Assembly (NCBI GenBank): GCA_024278215.1
Contig: JAJRTR010000168.1
Location: 1 to 6,631, forward strand
Direction: 5' to 3'
Length of the DNA stretch: 6,631 nt
Origin: a bacterium
Lineage (GTDB): Bacteria; UBP15; UBA6099; JAJRTR01
Shown here: in pieces, positions 1,952 through 6,631 of the stretch
Position numbering within the stretch: position 1 is the stretch's first letter
How the letters are laid out: each line of letters begins with the position of its first letter
The notes under the pieces: generated by a model
What the model saw: only the letters and a program-made list of their open reading frames with translations
Databases searched by the model: none
What the model was told of the DNA's origin: nothing
Program-made: the position numbers and the translations under genes

Positions 1952-1967
1952 TGGCACAAAAATTGCT
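1952..1967 (+). promoter_or_regulatory. Sigma-54 (RpoN) -24/-12 promoter
   Basis: The sequence TGGCACAAAAATTGCT matches the sigma-54 consensus TGGCAC-N5-TTGCW. The invariant GG (1953-1954) and GC (1965-1966) have the required spacing of 12 bases between their first positions. Transcription would start near 1978, leaving a leader of about 44 bases to the ATG at 2022, which carries its own ribosome binding site. Sigma-54 promoters need an ATP-driven enhancer-binding protein, so the giant gene would be tightly conditional. The motif and its placement are seen; use in vivo is inferred. Confidence 0.72.
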
Positions 1968-2021: not shown

Positions 2022-5000
2022 ATGGGAAAAGACAACAGAGATTCGACACCGGGGACATTGAGGAAGATCAGGGATATAGTGAGGTCGCGGCCTGTGGCGT
2101 CGCTGCTGACGGCGTTGCTGTTATTGTATGCGACAGCGGCGACGGTAAGCCGTGCGGCAACGAAAAGCTGGCCTTTCGACGACAGCGCGAAATATGTTTA
2201 TGATTCGTTGAACATTGATGTCGCGGGCAGCGTGGCAGACCTTGTAACCCAGGACTGGTGGAACAATGCGTGGCAGTACCGGAGAAAAATCGTCGTCGAC
2301 AACACGGCGGGCACAGCGCAGACGAATTTCCAAGTGCTTGTCGAACTCGACTCGAGCAGTTTCGATTTTGCAAGCGCGCAGGTAAACGGAGAAGACATAA
2401 GGTTTATCAACGGCACAAACGATACGGTATATGATTACTGGCGCGAGGATTTCGACGCGGCTAGTGAGACGGCAAAGTTATGGGTGAACATACCCACGCT
2501 GCCAGCCGCGGCGACGATGGCGATGTATATCTATTACGGCAACGCTGCCGCACCCGACGGAAGCGACTATACGAGTGTTTTTTATTATGTCGGCGAAATC
2601 GGATTCAGCAACCAGGACCCGATATCGGGGACATGGACGGCGATAACATACACGAATGCGTTTTCAGCGACGCCGGTGGTAGTGAATACGATACAGACGG
2701 CAGTCGACTATCCACAGCCCAGCGACAACACGAACACTGTGGGACCGATAACGGGGACAAATTGCGGCGGTAGCGACGGACTGGCCGACGGCACGGCCGA
2801 GCCGCGTGTGCGAAACATCACCACGAACGGGTTCGAATACAGGATGTATGTGAAGTCACTGGACTGCGACAATATACACGGGACCGAGAAACTGGCGTGG
2901 ATGGCGCTGCTGCCCGGCACGCATGTAATCGGTGATCGCGTTGTCCGGGTTTTCACCACGAACATAGGTGGCGGAACTGAGAATTACACAACAGTCTCTT
3001 ATGGTTATACGTTTTCGGACAACCCGGTTGTGCTGCCGCAACTCCAGAGCAATAACGAGACAGGGCCGGCCAGTATCAGGCTGAGGAATAAGAGCAATTC
3101 GGACATCGACGTGAAAATAGAAGAGGCCGGGGAGACCGCGCACGCTGTGGAGAGCGCGGGCATGGTGGTCTGGGACCAGGCGGGCTTTGACGATATTATG
3201 GGCGCGAATCTCGGGCCGGACCTCGAGGGTGAAGTGGGCAGCACGAATGTCGGCGCGGTGCAGCATATTTTCCAGTCGTCCACATTTCAGCACACCTTCA
3301 CTATTCCGGCGGCGGTGCTGTTCAAAGTCCAGAACGACAACGGCGGAAACAATATCCACGAACGTTTGCGGAATATAACGACGACCGGATTCGAGCAGGC
3401 GTGTTCGGAGAATTTCTACGCCATTCCGAATTCTTATGACGGCAACCACTACAACGACGAAGGCGGCTCGTTCATTGGAATATCGAATAAGAACGGGCCC
3501 GTGGGATATGATTACCGAAAAAAGATAACGATAGACAACACAGGCGGCGGCGCGCTGACGGATTTCAATATGCAGATCGACCTGACATCGGCGAACTTCT
3601 CCGACGGGTTCGCAAACGCGAAGGCGGACGGCAGCGACATAATGTTCACAGCCGCCGACGGGTACACGATGCTGGGTTACTACTACAACCCGGCCAACTA
3701 CGACCCGGTCGGCGAGACGGCCACATTCATGGTACATCTGCCGTCGGTACCGGCAAATGGAACACTTGATATTTACATATATTACGGCAATGCAGACGCG
3801 ATATCGTATTCCGATTCCACATATTCGTCATTGACAAAAATAATCGGTGAGGCGGGTGTGACGGCGGATGCTGTTCTTGGATCGACCAACGGCTGGTATT
3901 CGGTGACATTCGCAAACACATATTCCTCCCCGCCTGTCGTGGTGGCGAGTATGAACAGGGACGACGGGGGCGATCCGTCACACACGAGAATCAGAAACGT
4001 GACGACTACCGGTTTCGAGGTCGTGGTGGAAGAATCCGTGGACAAGGACGGCGCACACACTTCTGAAGCCGTGGGCTGGATCGCAATGGTGGAAGGCTCA
4101 TATACGATAGACGGCACGAGGTTCGACGCGTGGCGGCAGAACAATGTGGACGACAATTACGATACGGTGGCCTATCCCGGCGGGAATATCTCGCCGTCGC
4201 CGGCAGTGATCGCGACGCAGGAGACAAACAACAACACTTTCAAAGCGGGTTCGTCCCATACGCGAATAAAAAACGTAGGCGTGGCTTCATTCGATATCGC
4301 CGTCGAGCTTTGCGACAACTCTGTGGGTGCGCTGAATAATGAAACGATCATGATAATCGCGGCACAAAGAAAAGATTACGACTCGGGCAGCGGCGGTGCC
4401 GGTTCTTACTCGGTTATCTCCGCAACCAGGGACAGCACATACGCAACGATAAATCATCCGTTTGCTTTCTCCGGGGCTCCTGCCGTTGTGCCGCAGATCA
4501 TGACAGAGAACAATGGGGAAGCTTCACACATCAGGGTACGCAACTCCGGCACCACCAGCTTCCAGTGGATGATCGAAGAGGCCTACAATCTCGACCAGGT
4601 TCATCCCAATGAAACGCTCGGAAATATTGCGTTTGCCCAGGGCAACATTACCGTAACAACACCGCCGCCCGTGCCGTACCCGACAGCATCATTCGCCGCG
4701 CAGGAGAATGTCAATAATAAAATCATCCTGTATGCCCGCAAGTATCAGGCAACAACCCCTTCGATCACGATCGACAATGTGGAAATCTATAACAGGGACC
4801 CATGGATTACTCCGATAGAGGTCTTCACGGTTTCGTTCGACCAGGTGAATTCATTCACCGAAACTCTCGGCGCCGGCACAGGCAACGTGAGGTACCAGGT
4901 ATCCAACGATTTCACCAACTGGTACTATGTGGCGACCTCGACAAATGTATGGACACTGGCCGCTACAGCGTCATATTACGAGGCGAACACGGCTACCGAG

Positions 5001-6631
5001 GTCAATACCGATATACCGACATTCGACAACCAGATCGGCAACGGATCGTTCTACTTTAAAGCGTTGCTGCATGCGCCGACGGTCGCGGACGACATAGCGC
5101 TCGACCAGGTGGACATAGACTACGATGTGCCGGCGGCCGCGCCGGATATATTCGGAATAACGGCCAACCCGGACGTGCTTTTAGCGACAGTGACGATCAG
5201 CGGCGGAGACTTCGGGGTGGTGCAGGGCGCGTCGCGAGTGTTCTTCAACGGCTGCGAGGCGACATCGCTTGTGAGCGCGTGGTCGGACAACTCGATAGAA
5301 GTCAAAGTGCCCACCTGCGCGAGCAACGGGCCGGTAACGGTCATTGTCGGCCCTTATGTGTCCAACGAATGGCCCTTCACGATAAAGACGCCGACTATTT
5401 CTTATCTCCAGCCGCCCCGCGGCGATTTCTTTCAGGTTATAAATATATACGGCTCCGACTTCGGTTACGTGCAGGGCAACTCCTATGTGCAGTTCGCGCC
5501 CGGCGTGTTCTCGCAGATAGTTTCCTGGGACGACACACTGATAAAATGTCTCGTGCCGTCGGGCGCGGTTACAGGCAATGTGGTAGTGGTGACACCCGGC
5601 GGAACGTCGAACACCGTGCCGTTTACGATCACGCCCGACCAGTCCCGCTGGCCGTTCTCGACACCGACAAATTACATATACGGCGCACTGATAACGGACA
5701 CTGGAAACTTCGCCGAAACAGTGCCTGTGAACTCTCCATCGTGGCTCAGCCGCAGTTGGCTGTACCGCCGGAAGATCGACTACAACAACAACGCGGGCAA
5801 ACCGACGAACTTCCAGGTGAGGCTCGACCTGAACGCGTCGAATTTCGGAGACGGATTCTCGAAGGCGCGTTCGGGCGGCGAAGACCTGCGGGTGACACGT
5901 GTCGACGGTACAACCGCGGTGGACTTCTGGGTGGAAAGTTGGGACGCGACCGCCCAGACAGCGCGGATATGGATCGAGGCGCCGGATGTGGCGACGGAAA
6001 ACTCTGTGTACATCTACTATGGCAACAGCGCGGCGCCGTCTGTAAGCTCGTATCCCAACACACTTGATTTCGTGGGGCAGGCGGGAACCACAAGTAATAT
6101 CACCAACAATTGGACGGATGTTGCCCTGTCGGCGAATTTCGCCGAGAACCCGGTCGTGGCGGGAACAATGGTCACTACTTACAGCGGAGACCGCGCGCAT
6201 GTGCGGGCAAGAAACATCGACTATACAGCGCAGAACATGCAGCTCGCGATAGAGAACAGCGTGAACGCGGGCACGGCACACTCCAACGAGAATGTGAGCT
6301 GGCTCGCTCTGCGGCCCGGCTCGTGGTTCATCGGCAGCAGGCATGTCGAAGCGGGGACTACAGGCCCGGTGAACAGGGCCTGGACCGGCTGGATCAATTA
6401 CGCTAACGCATTCGGCGCGCAACCCGCGATACTGGCGTTGCAGCAGACAGCGGTAGTGTCCGGGTCTGCGACAACCAACTCGACCCAGATCAGGATAGAC
6501 AACGACAGCGGCTCCGCGACAAGGTTCCAGATGCGGCTCGAACGAGACGACGACGCGCAGCCGTCAAGCTTCGGCAGCGACGAAACTTCTGTCGGTTATA
6601 TAGCCATCGAAACAGGCGACGCCGACAACTC
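2022..6631 (+). CDS. Giant modular secreted surface protein with DUF2341, lectin-like repeats and IPT/TIG domains (3' end outside window)
   Basis: One frame stays open from the ATG at 2022 to the window end: 1536 full codons and no stop. The start is supported by AGGAAA at 2011-2016 (about 6 bases before the ATG) and an in-frame TAA at 1992. Residues 1-46 form a signal peptide: a basic n-region (RKIRDIVRSR), a hydrophobic core (about 25-42, LLTALLLLY) and likely cleavage after SRA or SRAA (45/46). No lipobox cysteine is present, so it is exported rather than a lipoprotein. Order after that: WPF...YxY linker (50-78), DUF2341 (79-178), three lectin-like repeats (191-487), DUF2341 (494-593), three repeats (609-874), beta-rich spacer (886-1035), IPT/TIG x2 (1041-1121, 1124-1203), a second WPF linker (1210-1240), DUF2341 (1241-1339) and two more repeats (1352-1438, 1442 onward). 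No catalytic motif is visible. A role in adhesion or glycan binding at the cell surface is inferred. It is probably monocistronic at its 5' side, under the sigma-54 promoter. Confidence 0.9.
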   Translation, partial: MGKDNRDSTPGTLRKIRDIVRSRPVASLLTALLLLYATAATVSRAATKSWPFDDSAKYVYDSLNIDVAGSVADLVTQDWWNNAWQYRRKIVVDNTAGTAQTNFQVLVELDSSSFDFASAQVNGEDIRFINGTNDTVYDYWREDFDAASETAKLWVNIPTLPAAATMAMYIYYGNAAAPDGSDYTSVFYYVGEIGFSNQDPISGTWTAITYTNAFSATPVVVNTIQTAVDYPQPSDNTNTVGPITGTNCGGSDGLADGTAEPRVRNITTNGFEYRMYVKSLDCDNIHGTEKLAWMALLPGTHVIGDRVVRVFTTNIGGGTENYTTVSYGYTFSDNPVVLPQLQSNNETGPASIRLRNKSNSDIDVKIEEAGETAHAVESAGMVVWDQAGFDDIMGANLGPDLEGEVGSTNVGAVQHIFQSSTFQHTFTIPAAVLFKVQNDNGGNNIHERLRNITTTGFEQACSENFYAIPNSYDGNHYNDEGGSFIGISNKNGPVGYDYRKKITIDNTGGGALTDFNMQIDLTSANFSDGFANAKADGSDIMFTAADGYTMLGYYYNPANYDPVGETATFMVHLPSVPANGTLDIYIYYGNADAISYSDSTYSSLTKIIGEAGVTADAVLGSTNGWYSVTFANTYSSPPVVVASMNRDDGGDPSHTRIRNVTTTGFEVVVEESVDKDGAHTSEAVGWIAMVEGSYTIDGTRFDAWRQNNVDDNYDTVAYPGGNISPSPAVIATQETNNNTFKAGSSHTRIKNVGVASFDIAVELCDNSVGALNNETIMIIAAQRKDYDSGSGGAGSYSVISATRDSTYATINHPFAFSGAPAVVPQIMTENNGEASHIRVRNSGTTSFQWMIEEAYNLDQVHPNETLGNIAFAQGNITVTTPPPVPYPTASFAAQENVNNKIILYARKYQATTPSITIDNVEIYNRDPWITPIEVFTVSFDQVNSFTETLGAGTGNVRYQVSNDFTNWYYVATSTNVWTLAATASYYEANTATEVNTDIPTFDNQIGNGSFYFKALLHAPTVADDIALDQVDIDYDVPAAAPDIFGITANPDVLLATVTISGGDFGVVQGASRVFFNGCEATSLVSAWSDNSIEVKVPTCASNGPVTVIVGPYVSNEWPFTIKTPTISYLQPPRGDFFQVINIYGSDFGYVQGNSYVQFAPGVFSQIVSWDDTLIKCLVPSGAVTGNVVVVTPGGTSNTVPFTITPDQSRWPFSTPTNYIYGALITDTGNFAETVPVNSPSWLSRSWLYRRKIDYNNNAGKPTNFQVRLDLNASNFGDGFSKARSGGEDLRVTRVDGTTAVDFWVESWDATAQTARIWIEAPDVATENSVYIYYGNSAAPSVSSYPNTLDFVGQAGTTSNITNNWTDVALSANFAENPVVAGTMVTTYSGDRAHVRARNIDYTAQNMQLAIENSVNAGTAHSNENVSWLALRPGSWFIGSRHVEAGTTGPVNRAWTGWINYANAFGAQPAILALQQTAVVSGSATTNSTQIRIDNDSGSATRFQMRLERDDDAQPSSFGSDETSVGYIAIETGDADN
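2256..2555 (+). other. DUF2341 domain, copy 1 (protein domain within the giant CDS)
   Basis: Residues 79-178. It opens with WWNNAWQYRRKIVVDN, has NFQVLVELDSSSFDF and GEDIRF in the middle, and closes with MYIYYGNAAAP. The W-x-YR(K/R)K opening and the YYGN closing are the family hallmarks. DUF2341 is a domain of unknown function common in exported multi-domain proteins. Confidence 0.88.
2592..3482 (+). repeat. Lectin-like beta repeats 1-3 (within the giant CDS)
   Basis: Three diverged units at residues about 191-304, 321-384 and 411-487. The shared pattern is an F-hydrophobic strand ending in PVV (NAFSATPVVV, TFSDNPVVLP, TFTIPAAVLF), then R-x-RN-[IV]-T-T-x-GFE (VRNITTNGFEY, LRNITTTGFEQ), then H and E residues before W/I-hydrophobic. 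Unit 1 has two cysteines (GTNCGG and SLDCDN) that could form a disulfide outside the cell. The pattern resembles H-type lectin modules, but this is pattern recognition, not a profile match. Confidence 0.65.
3501..3800 (+). other. DUF2341 domain, copy 2 (within the giant CDS)
   Basis: Residues 494-593: VGYDYRKKITIDN at the start, DFNMQIDLTSANF and GSDIMF in the middle, DIYIYYGNADA at the end. The leading tryptophan of copies 1 and 3 is replaced by Y496, and this copy lacks the WPF linker in front. Confidence 0.85.
3846..4643 (+). repeat. Lectin-like beta repeats 4-6 (within the giant CDS)
   Basis: Residues about 609-698, 714-786 and 789-874. Unit 4 is the clearest copy: WYSVTFANTYSSPPVVV, HTRIRNVTTTGFEVVVEES, then H...SEAVGWIAMVEG. 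Unit 5 keeps SHTRIKNVGVASFDIAVE and unit 6 keeps SHIRVRNSGTTSFQWMIEE and HPNETLGNIAF. The conserved core is SH-[TI]-R-[IV]-[RK]-N followed by F-x-x-x-[VI]-E and a later H...E pair. Confidence 0.7.
4677..5126 (+). other. Beta-rich spacer module of unknown family (within the giant CDS)
   Basis: Residues 886-1035 match neither the repeats nor DUF2341. Landmarks are SITIDNVEIYNRDPW, GNVRYQVSNDFTNWYYV (from 954), a W plus A-rich stretch with SYYEANTATEVNTDIPTF, GNGSFYFKALLHAP and finally DDIALDQVDIDYD. The layout suggests a jelly-roll-like beta domain; I know no named family for it with certainty. Confidence 0.5.
5142..5630 (+). other. Two tandem IPT/TIG domains (within the giant CDS)
   Basis: Residues 1041-1121 and 1124-1203. 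Both show the TIG pattern: P-x-I at the start, V-x-I-x-G-x-x-FG near the first third (VTISGGDFGVVQG; INIYGSDFGYVQG), V-F-x-G or V-Q-F, a W-S/D-D-x-x-I-x-x-x-VP strand, and an end of PFTI. TIG domains are immunoglobulin-like folds that often act as stalk or binding modules in surface proteins. The first has two cysteines (FNGCEA, VPTCAS) that may pair. Confidence 0.85.
5742..6038 (+). other. DUF2341 domain, copy 3 (within the giant CDS)
   Basis: Residues 1241-1339: WLSRSWLYRRKIDYNN at the start, NFQVRLDLNASNF and GEDLRV in the middle, SVYIYYGNSAAP at the end. It is closer in its framing to copy 1 than to copy 2, since both follow a WPF linker by about 30 residues and both are followed by lectin-like repeats. 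Confidence 0.88.
6075..6631 (+). repeat. Lectin-like beta repeats 7-8 (within the giant CDS, last one cut by the window)
   Basis: Unit 7 (residues 1352-1438) reads NWTDVALSANFAENPVVAG, AHVRARNIDYTAQNMQLAIE, then AHSNENVSWLALRPG. Unit 8 (1442 onward) reads WTGWINYANAFGAQPAIL, TQIRIDNDSGSATRFQMRLE, then SVGYIAIETG, and runs to the window end. The array probably continues downstream. Confidence 0.65.

Follow-up and report, generated by a model that had tools for sequence, protein, structure and literature searches.

Promoters of the sigma-54 (RpoN) type, with -24 and -12 elements, were described by Francke et al. (2011; PMC3162934), where placement before a start codon separated genuine sites from look-alikes; the targets named in the abstract of that paper are genes for exopolysaccharide, flagella, lipid, lipoprotein and peptidoglycan. 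In Pseudomonas, passages on lapA (PMC8125075) place the transcription of this gene for a giant surface adhesin under FleQ, an RpoN-type activator. For the giant proteins of uncultured bacteria, purpose and control are usually both unknown. We analysed a 6,631-nucleotide (nt) stretch of DNA (JAJRTR010000168.1; hereafter the window), which is the entire contig C145 of a metagenome-type genome, G000 (4.55 Mb, 207 contigs, 95% complete), and which carries a sigma-54-type site upstream of the gene for a giant exported protein. The site has the same consensus and spacing as the promoters of Francke et al. and, as there, lies less than 300 nt before a start codon. We estimate at roughly 0.84 the probability that it is a working sigma-54 promoter of this gene.

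A sigma-54-type site precedes a giant exported protein gene

The sequence TGGCACAAAAATTGCT is present letter for letter at positions 1952-1967 of the forward strand, with TGGCAC as the -24 element and TTGCT as the -12 element, and it matches TGGCAYNNNNNTTGCW (TGGCAY-N5-TTGCW, hereafter the strict pattern) in full. Its GG doublet (1953-1954) and GC doublet (1965-1966) are separated by 10 bases; the original prediction, made from the window alone, of both invariant doublets at exact spacing was thus confirmed in position and letters. The motif lies outside genes and in the same orientation as the start codon downstream. When C1966 is set as -12, the predicted +1 falls on G1978 of the forward strand, 44 nt 5' of the ATG at 2022, in agreement with the transcription start expected about 44 bases before a well-supported ATG. 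This start codon is supported by a Shine-Dalgarno-like AGGA at 2011-2014 on the same strand (7-nt spacer), by a Sec-type signal sequence recognized by reading, and by a frame of 1536 codons that reaches the contig end. A simple scan found no sigma-70-like promoter near the start of the giant gene. An open reading frame of 126 amino acids (aa) at 1589-1969, which overlaps the motif, was rejected as an unsupported gene; it covers a mobile-element remnant.

The 1536 codons (2022-6631, forward strand) are the 5' part of a gene that leaves the contig. Behind the signal sequence, Pfam matches above the cut-offs comprise three DUF2341 stretches, an H-type lectin domain (H_lectin) and an IPT/TIG domain, and these repeated extracellular-type domains support the earlier claim that a very large exported protein stands behind the motif. 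Positions 6540-6631 of the window and 1-92 of L070, the start of contig C126, have 92 nt in common, 90 of them identical by eye, and the gene probably continues on C126 in a frame of 2664 codons. Over its last ~110 residues, that frame weakly resembles, below the cut-off, the C-terminal region of a model for type IX secretion proteins. The complete protein, predicted at about 4200 aa, is likely secreted and perhaps surface-bound. DUF2341, H-type lectin and TIG would fit a carbohydrate-binding surface protein by family name only, and "adhesin", the word used originally, is a putative label. The titles and abstracts of the literature on DUF2341 held nothing on its regulation.

The genome encodes RpoN and activators, and most sites are placed as promoters

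G000 has one rpoN gene (476 codons, above the curated cut-off). Its product is intact and retains both the activator region at the N-terminus and the RpoN box, ARRTVAKYRE. A search for the sigma-54 activator domain gave 19 matches, the weakest three of which resemble other AAA+ proteins, leaving 16 further proteins with a clear domain, one of them cut by a contig end. Most of the activators carry GAFTGA or a near variant, and L011, L015 and L016 have DAYTGA or GAFTDA. A genome without rpoN, named in the original prediction as grounds for giving up the promoter, is therefore excluded, and the enhancer-binding proteins it called for are present.

By chance, 0.01 occurrences of the strict pattern would be expected in the window, and when the 300 nt before the ATG were put through 1000 dinucleotide shuffles, none matched as well as 1952-1967. 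The bare GG-N10-GC arrangement was observed 52 times in the window versus 59 expected and carries no meaning alone. Genome-wide figures were obtained from pattern searches combined with fetched stretches. The strict pattern has 8 matches in G000 and its reversed control 4; because about 8.5 are predicted from composition, the count says nothing on whether the sites are genuine. We had initially considered over-representation of the motif in the genome, an idea that was dropped; the count is ordinary and only the placement is not. Seven of the 8 matches lie outside genes with a start codon 26-261 nt downstream. Promoter-qualifying strand positions make up about 4.7% of 114 kb of G000 sampled, a rough null since the stretches were selected for containing motif matches, and on this basis P is about 4e-9, with 7 promoter-placed matches seen versus about 0.2-0.4 expected by chance. 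Three of the 4 reversed-pattern matches fall inside genes, and the fourth is followed only by a 41-codon frame. By our tally, strict matches in six sister genomes of the same order are promoter-placed in 29/43 cases.

These numbers bear on the alternative that 1952-1967 is a chance match and that an ordinary sigma-70-type promoter, missed by the simple scan, drives the gene. The ordinary genome-wide count and the giant relatives elsewhere in the order that lack a site speak for it; the excess of promoter-placed matches, the shuffles that never reach the match quality, and a near-match at a comparable place before the orthologue speak against it and make it improbable.

An orthologue carries a near-match with GT at -12

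A scan of genome contigs for orthologues of the giant protein returned only JAGUYV010000165.1 (G002:C101), from bacterium isolate DeMMO6_30, which belongs to another family of the same order; over their first 490 residues the two proteins share 52% identity. The orthologous gene carries TGGCATATAAATTGTT 33 nt before its ATG, a match equalled in 45 of 1000 shuffles. Loss of the GG and GC doublets in close relatives had been named as evidence against the promoter. In this one, rather distant orthologue, GG was kept and GC was changed to GT, which fulfils that expectation in part.

We therefore examined the GT-type pattern TGGCAYNNNNNTTGTW, which gave 14 matches in three genomes versus 16 for the reversed control. 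Since 7 of the 14 are promoter-placed (P about 1e-6), GT is probably tolerated and usable as -12 in these genomes. TGGCAY-N5-TTGTA stands before rpoN at a distance of 102 nt in G000 (L209, G000:C186:42904-42919, reverse strand) and of 127 nt in G002 (L206, G002:C362:4853-4868, reverse strand), two genomes of different families, and judging from this position rpoN may be self-controlled through a GT-type -12 element. Among the other promoter-placed GT sites, one lies before a flgK-like gene and one before a kinase-activator pair; two more precede exported proteins that are homologous to each other (35% identical), with 1407 aa in G000 and 1375 aa in G002. In G004:C42, a further giant protein (at least 4500 aa) is preceded by TGGCATGTTTCTTGCC at 41 nt from the likely start, a match equalled in 26 of 1000 shuffles.

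Sigma-54-type sites precede other large exported proteins

In G000, strict sites also stand before two paralogous exported proteins, 1469 and 1502 aa long, each with a dockerin domain at its C-terminus, and before a divergent pair of Fe-S/NifX-like genes. Others lie before a small stress-protein-like gene that directly follows a histidine kinase/activator pair and before an outer-membrane-type protein encoded next to an ammonium transporter (by reading). The ammonium-transporter and kinase/activator neighbours are classic sigma-54 settings. In the sister genomes, several sites form orthologous sets with the distance kept. One set lies before murC-like genes in four genomes; in another, a large exported protein of at least 1214 aa is preceded in three genomes by an identical strict site at 274-276 nt.

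Taking both types of -12 together, 4 of the 10 promoter-placed sites in G000 precede proteins of at least 1400 aa, and genes of at least 1000 aa number 3 of 68 in the sampled stretches, an enrichment of large targets with P about 6e-4 in a small sample selected around motif matches. All three belong to this set themselves, two as sigma-54 targets and one as the C126 frame, which makes the P value conservative in this respect.

Repeats accompany some of these sites. The sites of the dockerin proteins (L072 5141-5156 and L071 1058-1073) both have, some 100-150 nt further upstream, TGAGGCAAAAATGC-type repeats, which are likely the activator site of the two promoters. Between the divergent pair of sites at L075 6329-6676 lies a cluster of TGTTGCAACA-type dyads, likely a shared activator site for the Fe-S/NifX-like genes.

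A mobile-element remnant lies upstream of the probable promoter

Positions 1574-1807 of the window are filled by what reads as the remnant of an ISL3-type miniature inverted-repeat transposable element (MITE). Its two ends form imperfect terminal inverted repeats that span about 40-60 nt, and it is flanked by an 8-base-pair (bp) target-site duplication, GTTGTTGG, at 1566-1573 and 1808-1815 on the forward strand. The right end matches the terminus of an element present at many G000 contig ends, and a coding piece that adjoins this element reads as the C-terminus of an ISL3-type transposase; the ISL3 assignment follows our reading of that fragment. Within the remnant, 1625-1702 is a dispersed palindromic repeat with about 10 more copies, 78-90% identical. 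A second dispersed intergenic repeat occupies 448-628, with copies 76-79% identical in L098 and L102 that adjoin a repeat of the 1625-1702 type; it has no Rfam match.

The remnant ends 145 bp upstream of the -24 element. Because the sites of activators are usually found some 70-150 bp upstream of sigma-54 promoters (PMC3844500), the insertion may have moved such a site. This distance, together with the lack of a recognizable shared activator site, suggests an alternative in which 1952-1967 is or was bound by sigma-54 and the MITE split the activator site off, leaving the promoter weak, silent or activated from solution only. We consider it unlikely, though less so than a chance match: about 145 bp of non-element sequence between the MITE and the -24 element leave room for an activator site, and both core elements are still full consensus, as selection would predict. 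That interval holds a perfect 9-bp dyad, TTCTGCCCG-N10-CGGGCAGAA, at 1892-1919, which corresponds to about -86 to -59 relative to the predicted +1. The dyad is a candidate activator site; the genome contains neither an exact second copy nor a match with fewer than 2 mismatches.

The intergenic upstream region is strongly foldable (z -3.9). A structured RNA in this region was considered and rejected, the fold being explained by the mobile-element remnant and Rfam giving no match there. The repeat-rich, foldable surroundings might also suggest that the promoter is real and mainly yields a short regulatory RNA, or a transcript reading through the intergenic repeats, instead of serving the giant gene. 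This is highly improbable, for the fold stems from the MITE, which lies upstream of the promoter, Rfam recognizes nothing in the region, and only 44 nt separate the +1 from a good start codon with its Shine-Dalgarno sequence. Further upstream, 691-1404 encodes a protein of 237 aa for which neither Pfam nor NCBIfam gave a match; its neighbours are a YraN-like (UPF0102) gene on one side and the giant gene on the other.

Discussion

The sigma-54 promoter put forward in the original prediction gains support from the placement of the motif, from rpoN and from the activators, whereas the GC doublet did not hold in the orthologue. Several points weigh against a working promoter. The total count of the strict motif is not above chance. 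Only one orthologue was found, its -12 element has GT, and its match arises by chance in about 4.5% of shuffles. For the giant proteins in G001, G003, G004:C26, G005, G006 and G002:C303, the available upstream sequence shows no good site, the start codons of some of these relatives being uncertain; sigma-54 control of giant proteins is thus recurrent, not universal. No activator site common to the window and the other G000 sigma-54 promoters was found, the TGAGGCAAAAATGC-type repeats of the dockerin promoters being absent from the window within 3 mismatches, and the MITE insertion may have displaced or replaced such a site.

In the mechanism that we favour, RNA polymerase with RpoN would bind TGGCAC/TTGCT and be held as a closed complex, which an enhancer-binding protein bound upstream, presumably one of those encoded by the genome, would open using ATP. 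Transcription would then begin near 1978, and after a leader of about 44 nt translation from the ATG at 2022 would yield a giant secreted surface protein, whose export to the cell surface and binding function are predicted from its sequence. A condition-dependent switch would follow from the nature of sigma-54, and the "all-or-none" response proposed originally may go with it. The giant gene would be one among several for large exported proteins of G000 under sigma-54. More tentatively, sigma-54 in this order could have specialized in controlling a whole set of large exported proteins (giant proteins with DUF2341 and lectin domains, dockerin proteins and a conserved ~1400-aa family), acting through both GC and GT at -12, with possible self-control of rpoN and a mobile element reshaping one promoter; this is a possibility on which we would set clearly less than even odds.

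A solid sigma-54 site would place one giant protein under a switch that responds to signals and is powered by ATP. Three other large exported proteins of G000 are marked by the same motif, which provides a testable regulon and a candidate set of activators. The site matters mainly as a way into a sigma-54 regulon of large exported proteins, in an order that has been little explored.

Compared with ISL3-family MITEs, the remnant at 1574-1807 is alike in its 8-bp duplication and in terminal inverted repeats that match the end of the ISL3-like element of G000; unlike them, it holds a dispersed genomic palindromic repeat, and its tie to the sigma-54 site is positional only. Like LapA under FleQ, the protein described here is a giant, putatively surface-bound protein with control of the enhancer-binding-protein family, in our case predicted from sequence. 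The passages on LapA are silent on whether lapA needs RpoN, whereas a full -24/-12 site is present here; we claim no kinship between the proteins. Sigma-54 control of the cell exterior is a theme in common with Francke et al. (2011). Unlike the targets listed there, ours is a giant DUF2341/H-lectin/TIG protein of an uncultured order in which GT at -12 is seemingly used too. The motif is a good new example within the known role of sigma-54 at the bacterial exterior, not a new kind of thing, and the view of that role is extended by it, not changed.
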